Positions 1 to 55,519 of a DNA stretch of 57,927 nucleotides are shown here, piece by piece; the stretch's first letter is position 1, and every line of letters begins with the position of its first letter. Source of the DNA: Sulfurospirillum sp. (GTDB lineage Bacteria; Campylobacterota; Campylobacteria; Campylobacterales; Arcobacteraceae); assembly GCA_030491005.1 (NCBI GenBank), contig JAKZMJ010000029.1, positions 1-57,927 on the forward strand. Direction: 5' to 3'. The notes under the pieces are model-generated. The model ran no database searches and was not told where the DNA came from. It was given only the letters and a program-made list of their open reading frames with translations. The translations under genes and the position numbers were made by a program.

Positions 1-3000
1 TACAATCAGAAGGTGGAGCATCTGGAGCGGTTCATGGTTCTTTACAAGCTGGGGCATTAACTACTACTTATACTGCTTCACAAGGATTATTATTAATGAT
101 TCCTAATATGTATAAAATTGCAGGTGAATTGTTACCTTGTGTATTCCATGTATCTGCAAGGGCTCTTGCTACACATGCATTATCAATTTTTGGAGATCAT
201 TCAGATGTTATGTCTGCAAGACAAACAGGTTTTGCATTTTTAGCTTCAGGTTCTGTACAAGAAGTTATGGACTTAGCAGGTGTTGCTCATCTTGCTACGA
301 TTAGAACAAGAGTTCCTTTCTGTCATTTTTTTGATGGATTTAGAACATCACATGAAGTTTCTAAAGTAGAAGTAATTGATTATTCAGAATACGAAAAATT
401 AATTGATATGGATGCTGTTCAAGCTTTTAGAAATAAATCATTAAATCCAGAGCGTCCTGTTACTAGAGGTACTGCTCAAAATCCTGATATATTCTTCCAA
501 GCTAAAGAAGCTTCAAATAAGTTTTATGAAGCAGTTCCAGCTGTTGTTGATGATTATATGAAGAAAATTTCTAAAGTAACTGGTAGAGAGTATAATTTAT
601 TCGATTACTATGGTGCTTCTGATGCTGATAGAATTATTATTGCAATGGGTTCAGTTACTGAAACAATTGAAGAAACAATTGATTATTTAATTGCTAAGGG
701 TGAAAAAGTTGGTATGATTAAAGTTAGATTATATAGACCATTTGCTCCTGAGTATTTATTAAAAATATTACCAAAAACAGTAACTAAAATTGCTGTATTA
801 GATAGAACAAAAGAGCCAGGATCAATTGGAGAGCCATTATATTTAGATATTAGATCTATGTTTTTTGATATTGATGGACCAAAAATTATCGTTGGTGGTA
901 GATATGGATTAGGTTCTAATGAAACTAACCCATCTCAAATTAAAGCAGTTTATGATATGTTAGCAAGTGAAGTAAAAAATAACTTTACAATTGGTATTAA
1001 TGATGATGTTACTAATCTTTCTCTTGAAATTAAAGAAGAGATTGTTACTGAACCAGCTGGAACTACAAGGTGTATGTTCTGGGGTCTTGGATCAGATGGT
1101 ACTGTTGGTGCTAATAAGTCTGCTATTAAGATTATAGGTGATAACACTGATTTATATGCTCAGGGTTATTTCGCATATGATTCTAAAAAATCATATGGTA
1201 TTACAGTATCTCACTTAAGATTTGGTAAATCTAAAATTAGATCTACTTACTTAATTACAGAATCTGATTATGTTGCCTGTCATAACCAATCATATGTAGT
1301 TCAATATGATCTGTTAAAGGGATTAAGAAAAGGTGGTACTTTTGTACTTAATACTCAGTGGTCTGCTGAAGAATTAAGCGCTAATTTACCAGCTGATATG
1401 AAAAATAAAATGGCAAAAAATGATATTAAACTTTATATTATTGATGCTGTTAAGATTGCTGAAGAAATTGGATTAGGTAATAGAATTAATATGGTTATGC
1501 AAGCTGCATTCTTTAAGCTAACAGAAGTTATTAATGTTGATGATGCTATCGAATACTTAAAAGAAGCCGTTGTTAAAGCTTATGGATTAAAAGGTCAAAA
1601 TATTGTTGATATGAATAATAAAGCAATTGATGCCGGAGTTAATGCTTGTACTGAAGTTGAAGTTCCTGCTGATTGGGCAACTACTACTGAAGGACAAAAA
1701 ATGGCTTCAGATCCTAAAGATGGAGATACTGACTTTATTAAATCAATATTAAGACCAGTTTCTGCTCAAAAAGGAAATGATTTGCCTGTTTCAGTATTTA
1801 ATGGTGTTGAAGATGGAACATTTGAAAATGGATCATCTGCTTTTGAAAAAAGAGCTATTGCAACTAGTTGTCCAGAGTGGCAAGTAGATAGTTGTATTCA
1901 ATGTAACCAATGTTCATTTGTTTGTCCTCATGGAGTTATTAGACCTTTCTTATTAGATGCTGAAGAAGTTGCTAATAAACCAGAAAGTTTTGTAACTAAA
2001 AAGCTATTGGAAAAGGACTAGAGGGATTAGAGTATAAAATTCAAGTTTCAACTCATGACTGTACAGGTTGTGGAGTATGTGCTCAAGTATGTCCATCAAA
2101 AGTTAAGTCTTTAGTTATGAAGCCATTTGCTAGTCATGCTAAAGAAGTTGCTAACTGGGAATATGCTATGTCATTAACTATTAAAGATGATAAAATGCCT
2201 AAAACAACTGTTAAAGGTTCACAATTTGCTCAACCATTATTTGAGTTCTCTGGAGCTTGTGCTGGTTGTGGAGAAACTGCTTATATGAAAGCTGTAACTC
2301 AATTATATGGTGATAGAATGATAATTGCTAATGCAACTGGATGTTCTTCAATTTGGGGTGGATCTGCTCCAGCTACACCATATACAACTAACTCTAAAGG
2401 TCACGGACCAGCATGGGCAAACTCTTTATTTGAAGATAATGCTGAATATGGTTACGGAATGGCTCTTGGTGTTAAAACTGTAAGAAAACAAATTGCTGCT
2501 CAAGCTGAAGTTATTGTAGCTTCAGGTGATGATAAATTAGTTCCTGCATTTACAGCATGGTTAGAAGGTATTAATGATGCAGATGCTTCTAAAGCTGCTA
2601 CAGAGTTAATTAGAAGTGTTGTAGATACAAAGTCAAATAATGCAGATGTACAAAAAGCTTTAGATTTTGTTAAAGCTAATGATGAGTACTTAGTTAAAAA
2701 ATCTGTTTGGATTGTTGGTGGAGACGGATGGGCATATGATATCGGATACGGTGGACTTGACCATGTTCTTGCTTCTGGAGAAAATATTAATGTAATTGTA
2801 TTTGATACTGAAGTTTACTCTAACACTGGTGGACAAGCTTCAAAATCTACTCCTACAGCTGCTGTTGCTAAATTTGCTGCATCAGGTATGAAAGTTAAGA
2901 AAAAAGATTTAGGTATGATTGCTACTACTTATGGATATGTATATGTTGCACAAGTAGGAATGGGAGCTAATCAAGGTCAATTTATTAAAGCTTTAGCTGA

Positions 3001-3352
3001 AGCTGAGTCTTATGATGGACCATCTTTAATTATCTGCTACTCTCCATGTATTGCTCATGGATTAAAAGCAGGTATGAGTTCAGCTCAATATAGAATTAAA
3101 GAAGCAGTAGCTGCTGGTTACTGGCATTTATGGAGATTTGATCCTAGATTAAAAAATCAAGGTAAAAATCCATTCATTCTTGATTCTAAGCCACCTACTG
3201 CAAGTTATCAAGATTTCATCAATGGTGAATCAAGATATACTGTATTAATGAGTCAATTCCCTGATGAAGGAGAAAGACTATTTGTTAAAGCAGAGGAAGA
3301 TGCTAAAGAAAGATATGACAGTTATGTAAGAATGGCTGAAATGAAATATTAA
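1..3352 (+). CDS. por/nifJ: pyruvate:ferredoxin (flavodoxin) oxidoreductase, 5'-truncated by window edge, one frameshift
   Basis: Oxidises pyruvate with CoA to acetyl-CoA and CO2, passing electrons to ferredoxin or flavodoxin; a central enzyme of anaerobes. The frame is open from base 3 and already carries the domain I motif SEGGASGAVHG, so the start lies upstream of the window. Two 4Fe-4S clusters are visible: CIQCNQCSFVCP just before the break and CTGCGVCAQVCP just after it. The C-terminal part has the TPP-binding signature GDGWAYDIGYGG followed by NTGGQ. The frame breaks near 2010-2020, where one base seems missing in GGACTAGAGG; restoring it reads through as one roughly 1120-residue chain, matching single-subunit enzymes of about 1170 residues. 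The break looks like a sequence error. Identification is very secure. Confidence 0.96.
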
Positions 3353-11990: not shown

Positions 11991-12443
11991 TTGATTTATT
12001 ATTTTTCAATTATAATAATGGTTTTTTTAGACCAAATAGCAAAGCATTTTGCACAAGTAAAGTTATTAAAAGTAAGTACACTACCTCTTATAAAAGATGT
12101 ATTACACTTAACATATGTTGAAAATACTGGTGCAGCATTTAGTATTTTTAAAGATAAGCAAGTATTTTTAATTGGAATTACAATTATGGTTGGTGTTTTT
12201 ATAGTGCTATTACTATTAAAAGCTATTAAAACAAATGAAATATTAGTTTATAGAATTTCTTTATTATTAATACTTGGTGGTGCTATTGGAAATATTATTG
12301 ATAGAGTTAGGTTGCATTATGTAATTGATTTTATTGATTTTAGAATTATAAATTTTGCTATATTTAATATTGCAGATATATTTGTTGTAGTAGGAACACT
12401 ACTATTAAGTTATTCAGTGTTATTTAAAAATGTAAATATATGA
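11991..12443 (+). CDS. lspA: lipoprotein signal peptidase (signal peptidase II)
   Basis: Cleaves the signal peptide of prolipoproteins at the modified cysteine. The 150-residue chain has four hydrophobic helices. Conserved blocks are FLDQIAK, VENTGAAFSIF, GGAIGNIIDRV and FNIADI; the catalytic aspartates are in VIDFIDF and NIADI. Start is TTG at 11991 with a full AGGAGG four bases upstream. It follows cls by nine bases. The upstream lipoprotein gene at 9034 would be one substrate. Frame intact. Confidence 0.95.
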   Translation: MIYYFSIIIMVFLDQIAKHFAQVKLLKVSTLPLIKDVLHLTYVENTGAAFSIFKDKQVFLIGITIMVGVFIVLLLLKAIKTNEILVYRISLLLILGGAIGNIIDRVRLHYVIDFIDFRIINFAIFNIADIFVVVGTLLLSYSVLFKNVNI

Positions 12444-27109: not shown

Positions 27110-27409
27110 TTTGATATTAATGTAAAAATTTATTTGTTTTAAAATTGATATATGTATTTTATGTGGTTATATATGTACTTAAGATGACTATTTATGCATA
27201 TCTATATAAAAAAGAATAGAAATTAGATATAGTAGAACTGTTATACATATAATTTTTTTGGTATATTGCTATACTTATAATTAATATCATAAAGCGGAAA
27301 AACTTGATTTATAGATAAATAAAAGCTTTGTAAATTAAATTCAGAAAATTCATATAGATTAGTTAAAAATGTGTGATATAATATGTAATAGTAGAAAGGA
27401 GTGGTATTA
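27110..27409 (+). promoter_or_regulatory. intergenic region with candidate promoter for the His-rich protein gene
   Basis: 300 AT-rich bases. A consensus -10 TATAAT is at 27377-27382, 28 bases before the GTG start, but no good -35 is seen at 16-18 bases. A ribosome site AAAGGAG is at 27395-27401. No terminator hairpin for the Wzz-like genes was recognised here. Confidence 0.35.
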
Positions 27410-28132
27410 GTGTTAAAAAAGATAATAATTATAATTCTTATAGTTGCCCTAATAGGTTCTATTGTTACATATGTTGCGTATAAAAAAATTGAAGCTAGAT
27501 TTGAAAGTTTTATTTTGAGTGAAGTTGAAAATAGGAACTCTGAATTAAATAAAGCAAGTAATAAAATTATTGCAGATAGCGAAAATATAAAAAATCATGA
27601 TAATACATCAGAGCATAAAAATATAAATGACCATGATGGTATAATGGATCATAAAAGTGAAAATGACCATGATGGTATAATAAACCATAAAAGCGAAAAT
27701 GACCATAATGATATAATAGATCATAAAAGTGAAAATGACCATAATGATATAATAGATCATAAAAGTACAAACGACCATAATGGTGTAATAGACCATAAAA
27801 GTACAATAATAGAAAAAAACTCAGACGTAAAAAATGATACTTCTGTAAAAGAAGAAGTAGCAAAAAAAGAAGAGATATCGAAAGTGGTAAAAGAAAAAAA
27901 GGAAGAAGTAAAGTATGATTATGGTGCTGATAAATCTGAAGCTTTAAAACTTGCAATGTCAAAATTAACTGCACTTCAAATATCTAGATTAATAGAAATT
28001 TCTAGTGGTGGTTTTACAGCAAGTGAGAAACAAGAAGCTAAAGATATGTTTTATAGTAATTTTACTAGTGAAGAACAGAATTGGATTTTAGGAGTATATC
28101 AGAGGTATTACTCAGAAAAAAGTGGAGGTTAA
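27410..28132 (+). CDS. membrane-anchored protein with five His/Asp-rich 12-residue repeats
   Basis: About 240 residues. One N-terminal membrane helix (residues 3-24) is followed by a short helix, five tandem 12-residue repeats of the form NDHDGIIDHKSE (two His and two to three Asp each), a Lys/Glu-rich linker, and a conserved-looking C-terminal domain from about 185 (SEALKLAMSKLTALQISRLIEISSGG). Start is GTG 27410, eight bases after AAAGGAG. The repeats could bind divalent metal such as Zn2+, but this is inference from composition. It sits three bases upstream of an SLH protein gene, so the two are coexpressed. No known family was recognised. Confidence 0.7.
   Translation: MLKKIIIIILIVALIGSIVTYVAYKKIEARFESFILSEVENRNSELNKASNKIIADSENIKNHDNTSEHKNINDHDGIMDHKSENDHDGIINHKSENDHNDIIDHKSENDHNDIIDHKSTNDHNGVIDHKSTIIEKNSDVKNDTSVKEEVAKKEEISKVVKEKKEEVKYDYGADKSEALKLAMSKLTALQISRLIEISSGGFTASEKQEAKDMFYSNFTSEEQNWILGVYQRYYSEKSGG
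27626..27805 (+). repeat. five 36-base tandem repeats within the His-rich protein gene
   Basis: Five consecutive units of exactly 36 bases starting AATGACCAT, in frame, differing at a few positions each. The third and fourth units are nearly identical, as expected from recent slippage or unequal crossing-over. Confidence 0.92.
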
Positions 28133-32334: not shown

Positions 32335-33728
32335 TTATATAAGTTGTTTTGAATTAATTATTTTTTCACCAACACTTCTAATATTACCAGCTCCTAAAGT
32401 TAAAATAATATCATTAGGTTGGGCTGTTGCTAATATAAAATCAACAGCAGTATCTAAATCACCAATATACTTGACTTTATTTGTTTCAGAGGCTATTTCA
32501 GCAACTAAATCAGTTGAATGTATAGTTTTATCAGATTCATCTTCACGACCTGGTGGTGAGTATATATCAGTTATAATAATTGAATCAGCATCATTAAATG
32601 CAGTAGAAAATTGAAGCATTAAATTCCTAGTTCTTGAATAAGTGTGTGGTTGGAAAATACATACAACCTTATTATTTGGAATTTTTTTAGCTGCAGCTAA
32701 AACAGATTTAATTTCTGTTGGATGATGAGCATAGTCATCAATTATAGTTGCACCATTATATGTTCCAAGTATTTCAAATCGCCTTCTGACACCAGCATAT
32801 GATTTAACAGATTCAATAATTTTATTAGTTTTAATATTTAACTTATAAGAAGCAGCTATAGTGGAAAGAACATTATAAATATTATGCTTTCCAGGAAATT
32901 TTAATTGGAATGCACCCAATAAATCTTCCTTATAAAAAACTTCAAATTGACTATGTCCATTATCATCAAAAACAATATGTTTTGCTTGGAAAGTACTATT
33001 TGAATTAATTCCAAAAGTTATAACTTCACAATCAACATGAGAAATTATTTTTTTTGCGTTATAATCATCATTATTAATTATTAGAGTTCCATTACTTGGA
33101 ATATTTTTAGCGAATTTAGTAAATGCGCGAATTATATGATCAAGATCTTCAAAATAATCTAAATGATCTTCATCTATATTTAGAATTATTCCAATATTTG
33201 GCTTGAACTCTAAAAAATTTTCCTTGTATTCACATGCTTCTAATAAAAATATAGAAGTATCTCCTATTTGTACATTACTTCCTATAGTAGAAGCAATTCC
33301 GCCTATTAAAATCGTCGGGTTATGGTCTGAATCATTTAAAATAGTAGAAAGCATAGAAGTTGATGTGGTTTTACCATGAGCACCTGCAATTGCAATGCTA
33401 GTATTATATTCAGGCATTAAAACACCAATCATTTCAGCTCTAGTTATTATATCTAGATTCAGTTCTCTAGCTTTAATAAGTTCAATATTGTTATCAGGTA
33501 CCGCTGAAGAATAAACAATTAGATCAGGTCCAATTACATTGTCTTCAACGTGATTAAAGTTTATTGATATTCTCCTAACTTGATTAAGTGGTCAGTTATA
33601 AATGAGCTATTTTGATCAGAACCAGTTACTATATAAGATCTTTTATTTAATATTTCAGCTATTCCACTCATCATAATGCCACCGATACCAACAAAGTGTA
33701 TGTGACGTATTTTTTGTAAATCAATCAT
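32335..33728 (-). CDS. murC: UDP-N-acetylmuramate--L-alanine ligase (frameshifted)
   Basis: ATP-dependent cytosolic enzyme adding L-Ala to UDP-MurNAc, the first peptide step of peptidoglycan synthesis. The N terminus [20 protein letters not shown] binds the UDP-sugar, then [15 protein letters not shown] is the P-loop, [10 protein letters not shown] and [10 protein letters not shown] are Mur-ligase signatures, and [12 protein letters not shown] is typical of MurC. The frame shifts once near 33570; joining the parts gives about 464 residues, the usual length. Start ATG 33728 has GGAG eight bases upstream. As an essential gene, this break is one of the stronger hints of sequence error in the window. 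Confidence 0.94.
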
Positions 33729-34022: not shown

Positions 34023-34839
34023 GTGAATAGATATAAAAGAACCGAAAGAATAGGTGCAATAACTCAAATACTAATATATGTAAATTCACCTAATAAAGTT
34101 TTTACTCTAGCACGGTTTACAGAAATGTTTTTATCCTCTAAATCTACGATAAGTGAAGATATTGTGATATTAAAAGATACATTTGAATCTCAGAAAATAG
34201 GTAAAATTGAAACAATAACAGGAGCAGCAGGGGGAGTTAAATATATACCAATTGTATCTAAAGAAAAAAAGAAAAATATATTTGAATCATTAGTAAAAGA
34301 ATTATCAAAATCAGAGAGAAAATTGCCTGGAGGATATTTATATATTGGAGATATTTTATTTGATCCGAAATATTGTCAACAATTCGGTTCGATATTTGCT
34401 GAAGCCTTTATTAAATCATCTATTGATTATGTTGTTACTGTGGAAACAAAAGGAATACCACTTGCTTTAATGACAGCGCATTCTTTAAATATTCCGTTAG
34501 TAGTATTTAGGAAAAGTTTTAAAACCGATGATGGACCTACAATAAGCATACATTATGCTTCTGGATCTGATGGTAGCTTAAGACTATGTATGCGCCTAAA
34601 AATGTTATGGAGAAAGATTCTAATGTACTTATTATTGATGGATTTATGAGAGCTGGCGGAACAGCTCAAGAATTAAATATTTAGTAGAAGAGTTAAGCTG
34701 TAAAGTTGTGGGGGTTGGTATTTTATTTGATGAAACAACCAACAATAATAAATTAGTTGATAAATATTTTAGTGTTTTTAGTATTTATCCAAGTGAATCA
34801 TCAGATTGTGTTCAAATAAAGTCTGATATGCTTGAATAG
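34023..34839 (+). CDS. purR: pur operon repressor PurR (two frameshifts)
   Basis: Transcription regulator with an N-terminal winged helix (RYKRTERIGAITQILIYVNS, KSTISEDIVILKDTF) and a C-terminal phosphoribosyltransferase-like domain that senses PRPP. The latter contains GGYLYIGDILFDP, VETKGIPLALMTAHSLNIPLV and, after the first frameshift, NVLIIDGFMRAGGTAQE, the PRPP loop. Frame shifts fall near 34590 and 34675; the joined product has about 271 residues, the normal size. Start is GTG 34023 with AGGAGA seven bases before. The neighbourhood purR-spoVG-glmU-prs matches the conserved order in Bacillota. Confidence 0.92.
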
Positions 34840-35473: not shown

Positions 35474-36598
35474 ATGGAGAGTATAAATGGACTAATATAT
35501 ACATCAGATGATAATTCTAAAATGAAATCAAAAAAAATATAAAGAAGAACAAATTATCTGTGGTAAAAAAAGTAATTGATATTGTTACTAATGCAGTTTT
35601 AGAATATGGTATTTTACTTGAAAAAGAAGAATTAACTAATGATTTAAAAGAACTTATAATTTTTATGGGTCATGGAGCATTTGTAAATATTGAATTTGTT
35701 TTATCAGAAGTTGAACAATATAAAACTGAAATTACATTATTTAAAGATGGAAATGAAAATGATTTTGTTCTTTATATACCTAAGAATATTATTTTTGAAA
35801 ATATAGATATAATAAAATCAAATTGGAGTGGTATAGAAGAACTTGCTAATAAATTGAGTGATACAATACGAATAATTGATACTAATGAAGTAGTATGCGT
35901 AGAGTCAAAATTAGATTTAAGTATTGTTACTCAAAATATTCAATATGAAATTAATTTGAATATAGTAAATAAAGGAGCTACATTAATAGATTTTGATGCA
36001 ACTTATATAGATTTTGATGTTAAAGTGGGTATAGATACTATTATTTTTCCAAATACATTTTTGAGTGGCAATACTACAATAGGAGAAGATTGTATAATAG
36101 GTCCAGATAGTAGAATTCAAAATTCAATTATTGGAAATAATACAAGTGTAAAAGATAGTACTATTTTAGATAGTAAAGTAGAAAATAATACAAAAGTAGG
36201 TCCATATGCATATATAAGACCAAATTCTAAAATTGGATCAGAAGTAAAAATAGGAGATTTTGTTGAAATAAAAAATGCTGAAATAGGAGATGGAACTAAA
36301 ATATCTCATTTGTCGTATGTGGGAGATGCAGATTTAGGTAAAAATTAATATTGGATGTGGAGTAGTATTTGTTAACTATAATGGAAAAGATAAAAATAGA
36401 TCAGTTATTAATGATAATGTTTTTATTGGATGTAATTCTAATATTGTTGCACCTGTTGAGTTAGAAGAGTATTCATATATAGCAGCTGGAACAACAGTAA
36501 CAAGAAATGTACCTTCAGGTGCTTTAGCTGTTGGTCGAGCAAGACAAAAAAATAAAGACGGTTGGGTTGAAAGAAGAAGTTTAATCAAAAAAAAATAA
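35474..36598 (+). CDS. glmU-like: GlmU-like protein with intact acetyltransferase half and vestigial uridylyltransferase half (two frameshifts)
   Basis: Full GlmU makes UDP-GlcNAc from GlcN-1-P using a C-terminal acetyltransferase and an N-terminal uridylyltransferase. The left-handed beta-helix half is well kept here: NTTIGEDCIIGPDSRI, YAYIRPNSKIGSEVKIGDFVEIKNA, HLSYVGDA, then after a shift near 36345 INIGCGVVFVNYNGKDKN and GCNSNIVAPVELEEYSYIAAGTTVT. The N-terminal half is only about 130 residues instead of about 230. The nucleotide-binding LAAGxGTRMKSK motif reads LIYTSDDNSKMKSK, and no QLGTGHA or GDTPL motif is seen. Start ATG 35474 follows GGAGG; a shift lies in the A8 run near 35535. The uridylyltransferase is probably inactive. 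Confidence 0.8.
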
Positions 36599-50992: not shown

Positions 50993-52315
50993 ATGAAAAA
51001 AATTATAAATATTGACAATGTAATAATATTTCTGTTTAGTATTGTTGGATTAATATTAAGAGTTTATTTTATTAATAATATACCAACAAAACAATTATTT
51101 GATTTTCAAACATACTATGATGTGGCTAATAATATATATAATAATTTGGGATTTACATTAGATAATACTCCAATAGCATTTCAGGGAATGGGATATTCTA
51201 CACTTTTAGGATATTACTTTAGAATAGTTGGTGATAATTCGGAAATATTAGCAAAGTATTTAAATGTATTTATGTCAATGATGACTATATATATTGTTTA
51301 TTATATAGTTAGAAAAATGACAAAAAAAAGAGTGATAATATATGTTTCTACTATTTTAACTATTTTCCTTCCAAGTCATATTGCATATTGCAATGCAATT
51401 GGAACAGAAGTAATGTCTGCATTTTTATTATCATTTTTTATAGCTATACAAATAACTGATTTTAATTGTAAAATAAAATATCCAGTACTAGGAGCTGTTA
51501 TAGGAGTTATGGCATTAACTAAACCATTTTTTCTTGCATATCCTATATTAGTAGCACTAGTATTATGGCTAAAATCAAAGAATTTAAAAGATACTTTAAA
51601 AATATTGCTTGTAACAACAGCATTTATGATTTTGATTATATCTCCATGGACTTATAGAAATTATAAAAAGTTTGGTAGAATAATACCAATATCATATAAC
51701 TCTGGTTTTAATCTTTATATAAATAATAATGAAAATAATACTCATGGTGGATGGCAGTCCATGACTGATATATATACTGATAAAGAATTAGATGAAAAAA
51801 TAAAAACCCATATGAGTAAAGTTAATAATAATATAAAATTAGCCTCTGATATAGAGTTAGATTTTAAACCAGCAGCTATTAAATGGATTAAAGAAAATCC
51901 TTTAGAGTTTCTTAAATTAGGAGTTATAAGAATTGATTCTACATATTTTGATGGCACTTGGGATATTGATAGTTGGACTATGAATGGCTATAGAGAAGAA
52001 CTCGAAAAAAAAATAGGCATTAAAGCAATAAGATATACCAACTTTTTAAGATCATCATTTGATATCGTTACAATTACTATTTCTTCATTTGGATTAATGT
52101 TTATAATATTAAATTTTATTAAAATTTTACTTTCTATATTTATTAAAAGAAAAAAAATTGACTATTTAATAAGTATACCCTTTTTAAATTTATCATATAT
52201 ATCTTTGGTTTACTTTGTGTATGAAGGACAACCTCGATATAATTTTATTGTTTTATTTTTATTAATAATTGCAACTAGTATTATAATAGATAAATATGTA
52301 GAAAAATCTAAATAG
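50993..52315 (+). CDS. GT39-like (ArnT/PMT-type) integral membrane glycosyltransferase
   Basis: 440 residues with about ten membrane helices. The first extracytoplasmic loop after helix one carries DFQTYYDVANNIYNNLGF with an acidic residue (Asp of DFQTYYD) typical of the catalytic site of GT-C enzymes, followed by FQGMGYSTLLGYYF. SPWTYRNYKKFG and a late YNFIVLFLLIIATSI helix match polyprenyl-phosphate sugar:acceptor transferases annotated as family 39. Such enzymes use GtrB products flipped by GtrA. GGATGG lies before the ATG. Frame intact. Acceptor unknown; nearby SLH protein is a candidate. Confidence 0.75.
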   Translation: MKKIINIDNVIIFLFSIVGLILRVYFINNIPTKQLFDFQTYYDVANNIYNNLGFTLDNTPIAFQGMGYSTLLGYYFRIVGDNSEILAKYLNVFMSMMTIYIVYYIVRKMTKKRVIIYVSTILTIFLPSHIAYCNAIGTEVMSAFLLSFFIAIQITDFNCKIKYPVLGAVIGVMALTKPFFLAYPILVALVLWLKSKNLKDTLKILLVTTAFMILIISPWTYRNYKKFGRIIPISYNSGFNLYINNNENNTHGGWQSMTDIYTDKELDEKIKTHMSKVNNNIKLASDIELDFKPAAIKWIKENPLEFLKLGVIRIDSTYFDGTWDIDSWTMNGYREELEKKIGIKAIRYTNFLRSSFDIVTITISSFGLMFIILNFIKILLSIFIKRKKIDYLISIPFLNLSYISLVYFVYEGQPRYNFIVLFLLIIATSIIIDKYVEKSK

Positions 52316-52320
52316 TAAAA

Positions 52321-52349
52321 AAGTCTGAAGAAATTCAGACTTTTTTTGA
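52321..52349. terminator. bidirectional terminator between GT39-like gene and darG
   Basis: Arms AAGTCTGAA and TTCAGACTT with a GAAA-like loop, A run before and T7 after; ends both converging transcripts. Confidence 0.92.
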
Positions 52350-52361
52350 TTGTATTATAAT

Positions 52362-53381
52362 TTAGTTTTGAATAATGTATCCAAGTAGTGTTTTTGTAAC
52401 TACTTCCTTCTCATGTAAATAATTCAAACTGTCCAGAATACATTTTTTTGAAAATCTTTTATCTTTATCTTCTGACCAACATTTGAACTCCCGTACTACT
52501 TCAACTTCTGTAAGTACTTTTTCTTCATTGATTAAATAAACAATAGTAGCCATACATTCAAGTGCGTGGTTAGTTTTAATTGAATTAACAAACTTTGCTG
52601 ACTTTATAACATAAGGAACTAAAGATTCTAGCGTTGTATTTACGCTATTACTAATTAGTTTTGTATATAGAATTTTATAAGCTTCATTAGTATTTATCAC
52701 ATTATGAAATTTCTGATATTCTTTAATGTTCTTACTAATAATTGATATTGAATTATCATATGGTCCAAATTTATTTCTTGTAAATTTGAAATAATTTTGA
52801 CCTGATAACACATCTACAAAATAAGCAGTTTTTTGTAATCTTATTGAATCAAATTGTTCTAATTCATTCTTTATTCTCATCAAGATAAGAGCGGAAGTGC
52901 TTAATTTGGGTTCTGCTACTGCTTTTGAACTGTAGTTCCTTGATGGTTCATGTACATTTATCTTAACCTCTTCTGATATTACTGATAACTTCGTTTTAAT
53001 TAATTCTTTTACTTCACTCCATATTAAACCACCATTGCCACTACCTAAAGGTGGAATTGCGATAGATTTTACATCTAATAGATTAATTAATAAGACCAGT
53101 TCATCTAACCCATCATTTATATAAGACATTTTAGATTTCTTACGCCATTTATCTTTTGTTGGGAAATTAATAATCAACTTTCCACTTTCATAATAATGAT
53201 GTAATTTTCCAACTGTTAATTCTTTATTCTTACAAGCTTTTATATATGAAATGTTGTTCTCTGGATATTGTAACTTAAATTGATAAGCAATCCCTTTACC
53301 CATATACCCTTCGCAATTTACAGTGTTTACTAAAGCTTCAACAGGTGATTTTAATAAGTCTCCAGTTATATAGTTAATCAA
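52362..53381 (-). CDS. darG: DarG-type antitoxin: macrodomain ADP-ribosylglycohydrolase with C-terminal toxin-binding domain
   Basis: 339 residues. The macrodomain (1-150) contains GDLLKSPVEALVNTVNCEGYMGKGIAYQFK at the N terminus and IPPLGSGNGGLIW near 110, both characteristic of DarG, which removes ADP-ribose from thymidine in DNA. Residues 165-339 are a helical domain (MRIKNELEQFDSIRLQKTAYFVD, FTRNKFGPYDNSI) of the kind that binds and blocks DarT. Start is TTG 53381 with GAGGTGAT just upstream; the toxin gene ends 30 bases before. Frame fully intact, unlike the toxin. Confidence 0.92.
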   Translation of the reverse strand: MINYITGDLLKSPVEALVNTVNCEGYMGKGIAYQFKLQYPENNISYIKACKNKELTVGKLHHYYESGKLIINFPTKDKWRKKSKMSYINDGLDELVLLINLLDVKSIAIPPLGSGNGGLIWSEVKELIKTKLSVISEEVKINVHEPSRNYSSKAVAEPKLSTSALILMRIKNELEQFDSIRLQKTAYFVDVLSGQNYFKFTRNKFGPYDNSISIISKNIKEYQKFHNVINTNEAYKILYTKLISNSVNTTLESLVPYVIKSAKFVNSIKTNHALECMATIVYLINEEKVLTEVEVVREFKCWSEDKDKRFSKKCILDSLNYLHEKEVVTKTLLGYIIQN

Positions 53382-53410
53382 ATTATCACCTCTCTTCTAC
53401 ATTTATAAAA

Positions 53411-54004
53411 TTAAACCCAAGGTCGTACATCAATATACGGCATTTGATCAACTGATAATTTTTGTAATAGTTTGCTTTCAACTTCTTCTTTTATTTTATT
53501 TGATGAAACACAAATACTTTGAAAATTATTGACATCTATTTTTAATTCAGTAAGACACTCAGCCATTTTCACATGTTTCATATAAACATCTTCAGTTCCA
53601 AGTGCACTCATAGTTTCCCCAATCTATTTGTTCAAATCCATCTACATAATCTAATAAATTGCATTTATCTAAAGATAAAGGGTGAGTTGTTTATTATTTT
53701 AAAAGCATTATTTTTCTGCATCTTCTCTTAATATACATAAGTAAATAAAATCAGTATTTGCATACTCTCTTTTTACCGCTACATCAAAAGATGAGTATGG
53801 ATGAAAATGAAACGGTGTATATTTATCTAATCCTAATAAAGTTCTCTTAGAAATAATATTAGTACTTGCAACATCATTAAATATTAGTCCAGCTTCTAAC
53901 ATACTTTTCCTAGGTAATAAACCATGTTCTATTATACTTTCTAAATTCTCTAGTGCAGTTAAATGATAAAGTAATTTAGTGTTTTTTACATTCTCAAGTC
54001 CCAT
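53411..54004 (-). CDS. darT: DarT-type ssDNA thymidine ADP-ribosyltransferase toxin (frameshifted)
   Basis: The N terminus (TKLLYHLTALENLESIIEHGLLP) is the NAD-binding start of DarT/DUF4433, followed by YTPFHFHPYSSF and YANTDFIYLCI. The frame breaks near 53708 after REDAEK, again near 53655, and again near 53610. In the restored frame come PLSLDKCNLLDYVDGFEQIDW and TMSALGTEDVYMKHVKMAECL, whose Glu in MAE matches the catalytic Glu region of DarT. Total about 200 residues, standard. AGGAGG precedes ATG 54004. The toxin modifies thymidines in single-stranded DNA; the antitoxin gene follows. Breaks may be sequence errors or true toxin loss. Confidence 0.85.
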
Positions 54005-54022
54005 GTGTAATCCTCCTGTCTT

Positions 54023-54060
54023 TAAGTGTATTTAAAATCTATTATTATCATAATACACTT
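54023..54060 (-). promoter_or_regulatory. inverted repeat in the darT leader
   Basis: Perfect 9-base arms AAGTGTATT (54023-54031) and AATACACTT (54052-54060) separated by 20 bases, ending about ten bases before the darT ribosome site. It can be an operator or an mRNA hairpin that affects toxin translation. Confidence 0.55.
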
Positions 54061-54139
54061 AAATTAACAGAATATTCATAATATTATCAATGTTTTATTG
54101 ATTATTAATACCCATTGAAGAATAAAGCTTTATATTACA

Positions 54140-54168
54140 ATTATACAGAACGTTCGTTCTGTTGTCTA
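54140..54168 (-). promoter_or_regulatory. darTG promoter with a palindromic operator filling the spacer
   Basis: On the minus strand: -35 TAGACA (54163-54168), 17-base spacer, -10 TATAAT (54140-54145). The spacer region is occupied by the 18-base palindrome ACAGAACG-TT-CGTTCTGT (54145-54162). The same sequence contains GAAC-N4-GTTC, the core of the LexA/DinR box of Gram-positive bacteria, and also resembles TetR-family operators. Transcription would start near 54133 and leave a leader of about 130 bases before darT. Confidence 0.65.
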
Positions 54169-54635
54169 CATTTTTTTATACTTTCTTATTTACACACTAA
54201 TTTATAAAAAAGATTAGATGTATTTTTTTAACATATCTGAAAGCTTTAAAACGACCTTAAAAAATATTTGTTAGTTTAGTTGTAAGAAATACTTAGAGAG
54301 TTGGTTTGATAGAGGCTGATTTAGTTATAGTGAACAAGGGGCAATGAATATGTTTACAATTATAGTATAGTTTTTAAAAAAGTTTTTTATTAATTTTCTA
54401 TAATATATGGTATTTGATTCTCCATTCGTATACAATGTATCTTAGGAATACTTAATTATTTTTTTTATTTGATTGCTTTAATATGTTTATTACATTTAGA
54501 TTACTAATTAAAAAAATATGTCATTTTTCTTGACAACACCTTTAAAAAGATGTTAGTATATGGTAGTGTTCAGTTTACGAACTATTCAACATATTTTAAA
54601 AATTATGCTAATTAATAATAAAAGGAGATATTTTA
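54169..54635 (+). promoter_or_regulatory. intergenic region with promoter for the exopolysaccharide locus
   Basis: 467 AT-rich bases without a gene. Near the right end is a plausible promoter, TTGACA (54530-54535), 18-base spacer, TAGTAT (54554-54559), followed by a small dyad AGTT-N4-AACT at 54571-54582 in the early transcribed region that could bind the downstream MarR-type regulator. The rest shows nothing recognisable. Confidence 0.55.
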
Positions 54636-55217
54636 GTGACTCAGAGTAATGCTTTATATTCGGATAATGAATTTTTTATTATGGAAGAAATTATTTATAA
54701 TGAAAAAGTAAGTCAACGTGAACTCTCTAGAAAACTAGGATTGTCTTTAGGCACTATTAATGTGTTAATTAATAAAATGATTAAAGATGGAAAAATTAAA
54801 ATGAATCAAGTTTCTCAAAGACAAGTTATGTATATGTTAACACCTACTGGTATAATTGAGAAATCAAAAAAAACACTTTCTTATTTAAAAAGTCATTATC
54901 GTGCTATTTATGAAACTAAGGAAAAGATTAAATTAATTTTGAATGAATTAAATTCAGAATATAAAAATATAATTATTTTTAAATCAAATGATGAAATGGG
55001 TGACTTGATTGAACTTGCCATCACGGAATATAAATCAATTAATAAATTTGATAAAATGGAAATAATTGATGAATCTTTTGACCTTGATAAGTATAAAAAT
55101 ATAGCAAACTCTGTTGTTTTATATTTAATTGAAAATGAAGAAATAATTAGCAAGTTATTGAAAATGAATTGCAATATAAATAATGTTAGAGTTGTTAATT
55201 TGTTTGAAATGTTGTAG
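54636..55217 (+). CDS. MarR/winged-helix regulator of the exopolysaccharide locus type
   Basis: 193 residues. The N-terminal winged helix (about 10-75) has MEEIIYNEKVSQRELSRKLG, LSLGTINVLINKMIKDG and the wing MNQVSQRQVMYMLTPTG, followed by a coiled-coil-like helix and an alpha/beta domain of about 85 residues that is not recognised. Similar two-part proteins open capsule and exopolysaccharide clusters in other bacteria and are called MarR-type EPS-associated regulators. GTG start with AAGGAGAT ten bases before. It is the first gene of the locus, so autoregulation is likely. Frame intact. Confidence 0.78.
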   Translation: MTQSNALYSDNEFFIMEEIIYNEKVSQRELSRKLGLSLGTINVLINKMIKDGKIKMNQVSQRQVMYMLTPTGIIEKSKKTLSYLKSHYRAIYETKEKIKLILNELNSEYKNIIIFKSNDEMGDLIELAITEYKSINKFDKMEIIDESFDLDKYKNIANSVVLYLIENEEIISKLLKMNCNINNVRVVNLFEML

Positions 55218-55231
55218 AGGGGAAGAACCTT

Positions 55232-55490
55232 AGGATTATTTTAAAAATTAGCGTATAAAAAGCGAGGTTTTAAATATGAATTAGAAGAATTATTAAAAAT
55301 AATTGACTCAAAGGTAATTATTGAAATAGCTGGTCTAAAAGAAACCTATAACTTGAAATCACATATAAAAGAAAACATATTGAATTATACAGTGAAAACT
55401 ATTAAACCTGACAATAATAGTGTTTTAATAGAATTAGAGCAAGTCGAAACTTTGGAAAAAAACGGTTATAGTTTTGAAGTTGGAATGTAA
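55232..55490 (+). CDS. small protein of the exopolysaccharide locus, unknown (frameshifted, start unclear)
   Basis: A frame of about 75 residues, KKRGFKYELEELLKIIDSKV to GYSFEVGM, is open to TAA at 55490, and the likely N terminus (RIILKIS) lies in another frame just upstream, with a break near 55255. No good start codon is seen, perhaps due to the break; GGGGAAG precedes the presumed start. The sequence appears to be a small alpha/beta protein (SKVIIEIAGLKETYNL, NNSVLIELEQVE). No family recognised. It lies between the MarR-type regulator and the priming sugar transferase. Confidence 0.5.
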
Positions 55491-55519
55491 TAAATTATTG
55501 TAATTTTGGAGGAATCATA

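Follow-up and report, generated by a model that had tools for sequence, protein, structure and literature searches.

In Clostridia and Bacillus, LexA (DinR) acts at SOS boxes of genes such as lexA, recA, yneA, uvrBA and ruvCA. These boxes carry a GAACN4GTTC core with A or C in front of it, and the LexA box published for C. difficile and B. subtilis is of the GAACN4GTTC/T type (PMC4234289). SOS-controlled toxin-antitoxin (TA) loci have also been described, among them Caulobacter higBA and E. coli yafNO, symE, tisB and hokE (PMC2814082). In Caulobacter, the LexA-controlled higBA is found in a single lineage (PMC13384398). Having a LexA box at its promoter does not always make a TA locus inducible: no induction came from the proximal box of E. 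coli yafNO (PMC2814082). A study of DarTG and LexA describes DarT as a cause of SOS and not as an SOS target; the lesions made by E. coli DarT on single-stranded DNA induce SOS (PMC7003065).

Here we analyzed a darTG locus in a stretch of 57,927 nt (referred to as the window). It is predicted to be a LexA-repressed, damage-inducible operon, the palindrome in its promoter being a clostridial SOS box (probability about 0.82). Like the Clostridia and Bacillus SOS boxes, the darTG box has the GAACN4GTTC core with A or C before it, and like the lexA/yneA boxes it lies in the -35/-10 spacer. It is unlike them in preceding a TA operon instead of a repair or division-control gene, and its centre is less A/T-rich than usual (GAAC/GTTC vs AAAT/ATTT). 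The gene order darT-darG and the DarT and DarG family matches are those of DarTG phage-defence/TA systems, and the predicted LexA control would make the locus comparable to higBA, yafNO, symE, tisB and hokE. It most likely joins this known class of SOS-controlled TA loci with an unusual toxin. The toxins of the five loci just named are mRNA interferases or membrane peptides. DarT, in contrast, is a DNA-modifying enzyme and an inducer of SOS in its own right (PMC7003065).

The darTG promoter and its palindrome

The promoter region was found to contain the following features.

54163 to 54168, minus strand: -35 element TAGACA (sequence reading)
54162 to 54146, minus strand: -35/-10 spacer ACAGAACGAACGTTCTG, 17 nt (sequence reading)
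54145 to 54162, minus strand: predicted operator of LexA type within the spacer, the perfect 8-2-8 palindrome ACAGAACGAACGTTCTGT (sequence, PWM score and chance rate, near-copies at SOS genes)
54148 to 54159, minus strand: LexA core GAACGAACGTTC (GAAC-N4-GTTC), matching the C. difficile/B. subtilis LexA consensus in PMC4234289
54140 to 54145, minus strand: -10 element TATAAT (sequence reading)
54005 to 54133, minus strand: predicted untranslated leader of ~129 nt (start point inferred)

An earlier note had described TAGACA and TATAAT 17 bases apart on the minus strand and a palindrome filling the spacer. Sequence reading confirmed the two elements at 54168-54140 and the palindrome as a perfect 8-2-8 repeat at 54145-54162. 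The LexA box is at base 4 of the spacer, and the palindrome ends on the T that opens the -10 TATAAT (minus strand). This promoter is the top match (11/12) within 52250-54750, where promoter-like matches are as frequent as expected by chance (19 vs 19.6). No second promoter scoring at least 9/12 was found on the same strand darT-ward of it, and the promoter with the LexA-type box is the only strong one upstream of darT-darG. From the -10 position, transcription would start near 54133. The predicted darT leader exceeds the usual length; a Shine-Dalgarno sequence AGGAGG is located at 54017-54012 (minus strand) ahead of the darT start at 54004. A search of Rfam families over 52000-55500, including the leader, returned zero matches.

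Perfect 8-2-8 palindromes are common in the AT-rich window (8 vs 4.8 expected), so symmetry alone is little proof of an operator. A LexA-box PWM was built from the 63 boxes that precede lexA and recA in Clostridia. The darTG-promoter site scored 19.8 bits, the highest in the window, and only 0.004 sites with this score or higher are expected per window. In a leave-one-out comparison, 42 of the 63 clostridial boxes scored no higher than the darTG-promoter site and 21 scored above it. Its core and flanks are like those of the lexA and recA boxes of relatives, and it overlaps the promoter elements of the gene that it would control. The GAACN4GTTC string occurs three times in the window (0.17 expected). 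The two other copies are intragenic, at 304-315 inside nifJ (14.2 bits) and at 52927-52938 inside darG (5.7 bits), and are probably due to chance.

Near-copies of the palindrome in Clostridia

GAACN4GTTC/T boxes were found upstream of recA at 21 of 21 Clostridia loci and upstream of lexA at most. The 18-mer of the darTG promoter was compared with 391 Clostridia genomes, allowing up to two mismatches, which yielded 33 matches in 30 genomes. Intergenic near-copies with an intact core adjoin mainly SOS/repair genes, as follows.

L101 (1 mismatch), L102 and L104: lexA/yneA region
L116: yneA adjoining ruvC
L094: Y-family polymerase
L099: rSAM_link_UDG DNA-repair protein
L100: DEXH repair-type helicase
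L108 and L109: intergenic with intact core, no gene assigned

The remaining near-copies are mostly intragenic and look like chance matches. The 15-mer AACGTTCGTTCTGTT is common to the window and the lexA upstream region of one genome (G022, L059). In eleven lexA-region promoters (L042-L045, L049, L050, L052, L053, L057, L061 and L062), the -35/box/-10 layout recurs: TTGACN and TATAAT-like elements are separated by 17-18 nt, and the box is found at spacer base 3-4. The same box position was seen in L101, L102, L104 and L116. On an independent contig (L143), AGAACGAACGTTCTCTATAAT is located just upstream of a lexA-like gene, around 12024-12044; this is a GC-rich contig from a viral collection.

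The earlier note had read GAAC-N4-GTTC as a possible LexA site. That reading is supported by the motif, the spacer layout and the SOS genes beside the near-copies. LexA binding, repression and damage induction at the darTG promoter are inferred from these sequence comparisons.

Origin of the contig

The whole window (1-57927) is most likely a Clostridia contig misbinned with an unrelated genome. The assembly has two truA genes; the copy in the window reaches 56% identity to Clostridia at most, and 31% to the other copy. In tetranucleotide use, three pieces of the window correlate at 0.74-0.76 with each other vs 0.38-0.68 with six stretches of other contigs in the bin. The contig carries a purR of the B. 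subtilis type, and all long darT matches with at least 53% identity come from Bacillota or clostridial bins. The assembly outside the window contig appears to resemble another phylum: its RecA is 60-66% identical to Clostridia RecA, while one Clostridia RecA (L080) shares 71-91% identity with the remaining Clostridia sequences.

No protein with a LexA_DNA_bind domain was matched in the assembly. Its sole S24-peptidase protein matches LexA poorly (22 bits vs a cut-off of 111), and the gene adjoins a DNA adenine methylase-like gene. A second copy of the 18-mer with up to three mismatches was not found in the assembly. We did not treat these absences as evidence against LexA, given that the contig is apparently a contaminant; the apparent misbinning also means that looking for the palindrome at recA and lexA of the same genome, as the earlier note had proposed, does not apply. 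The LexA of the source organism would be like that of its Clostridia relatives.

The darT and darG genes

The operon and its 3' end were read as follows.

53708 to 54004, minus strand: N-terminal section of darT, first 98 codons, then a stop in the assembly (PF14487 positions 1-92, PADLOC DarT)
53612 to 53707, minus strand: middle section of darT, passing through two other frames (frame reading)
53411 to 53611, minus strand: C-terminal section of darT, first frame again (PF14487 positions 147-191)
52362 to 53381, minus strand: darG, intact, TTG start, macrodomain and C-terminal domain (NF048014, PADLOC DarG)
52317 to 52346, plus strand: terminator-like hairpin 3' of darG, in the gap between two convergent genes (sequence)

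The label darTG had been given from the sequence alone. The family assignments are right (PF14487, PADLOC and NF048014), but in the assembly darT has no unbroken frame, a point absent from the earlier note. DarG matches NF048014 with 261.3 bits (cut-off 250) and is also called by PADLOC. For DarT, a complete ADP-ribosyltransferase frame was not found: the family match is limited to both ends, and three mutually cancelling frame changes fall in the stretch from about 53611 to 53707. Other genes of this contig are affected too: nifJ is split in two frames, while murC, purR and glmU are incomplete (96-3352, 32335-33432, 34023-34649 and 35560-36348), which suggests that the contig carries many indel errors. 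The break in darT may thus be a sequence error as well; sequencing error is a fair explanation, as likely as decay of darT, which is possible. At 27401-28132, the window is predicted to encode a protein in which NDHNDIIDHKSE-like units are repeated.

In 16 cellular and 6 viral-contig relatives, the 500 nt preceding darT contained no LexA box, and none was found upstream of darG in L124, L125, L127 and one phage record. The box is not conserved with the darTG module, and the link to LexA is lineage-specific, as it is missing from about 25 related darT/darG loci. The window's darTG differs in this respect from the related loci examined and resembles Caulobacter higBA, whose LexA link is also limited to one lineage. 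Relatives of darTG are also found on Cytobacillus plasmids, and no box was seen upstream of the plasmid and phage relatives examined. A distant Citrobacter darT (L027, 31% identity) is preceded at 574 nt by a weak LexA-like string, which was disregarded because the E. coli-type LexA box differs. An unannotated faecal phage record (L135, MT837167.1) carries a darG 60% identical to that of the window.

Other explanations of the palindrome

The site could be a real LexA box that has no effect on darTG, either as a relic of a lost SOS gene or because it is bound with no change in output, while darTG is decaying. The box is unique to the darTG locus of the window, the leader is long and darT is broken in the assembly, all of which would fit, and the yafNO proximal box is a precedent (PMC2814082). 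However, promoter and box are intact, point in the same direction as darT and have no strong promoter competing with them. Furthermore, darG is intact, and the three frame changes in darT cancel, on a contig where nifJ, purR, glmU and murC are split or incomplete as well, so that decay is no more likely than sequence error. We consider an ineffective box unlikely.

The earlier note had left room for a TetR-family repressor, and a perfect dyad in the spacer would suit a TetR dimer, or another local repressor, as well. No TetR-family gene was seen next to the darTG promoter, though. The closest regulator gene is MarR_EPS-like, 474 bp away and in the opposite orientation. This regulator (54636-55217; 59.6 bits, cut-off 88) lies upstream of polysaccharide genes and has its own TTGACA-type promoter near 54530. 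Inspection of the ORFs neighbouring the near-copies in the 391 Clostridia genomes revealed no recognisable tetR, and the intergenic near-copies are mainly at SOS genes. The TetR alternative found no support at the site or its near-copies and is improbable; as regulator of the darTG promoter, LexA is strongly favoured over TetR by these comparisons.

Autorepression is common among type II TA systems, and a palindrome in the operon's own promoter could serve as an autoregulatory operator bound by DarG or a DarT-DarG complex. One would expect such an operator to accompany the module, yet the site is missing upstream of the approximately 25 related darT/darG loci. In addition, the macrodomain is the sole Pfam match in DarG, with no DNA-binding domain. 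We judge autoregulation very improbable.

A chance palindrome, for which the abundance of 8-2-8 repeats in the AT-rich window could be cited, is hardly credible at a site that occupies the spacer of the region's best promoter and reaches a LexA-box score expected 0.004 times per window.

Predicted regulation and its meaning

Under the LexA reading, a LexA dimer bound to the operator between -35 and -10 would block RNA polymerase in undamaged cells and darTG expression would stay low. Upon damage, RecA filaments on single-stranded DNA would trigger LexA self-cleavage. The loss of LexA would free the operator and darTG would be transcribed.

A positive feedback loop is conceivable because E. coli DarT triggers SOS through its lesions: the lesions would induce SOS, SOS would free the darTG promoter, and more DarT and DarG would be made. 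We put this forward tentatively and regard it as doubtful. If it is true, DNA damage, such as that from an invading or awakening phage, would arm DarTG, and the toxin activity would amplify its own expression.

LexA-controlled TA loci are already known, and those in the papers cited here encode mRNA interferases or membrane peptides. In this locus a DNA-modifying, SOS-causing toxin is under predicted SOS control. If the prediction is true, the sensing of damage and its production would be joined in a closed loop, and there would be a simple, testable answer to the question of when the DarTG defence switches on in this lineage.
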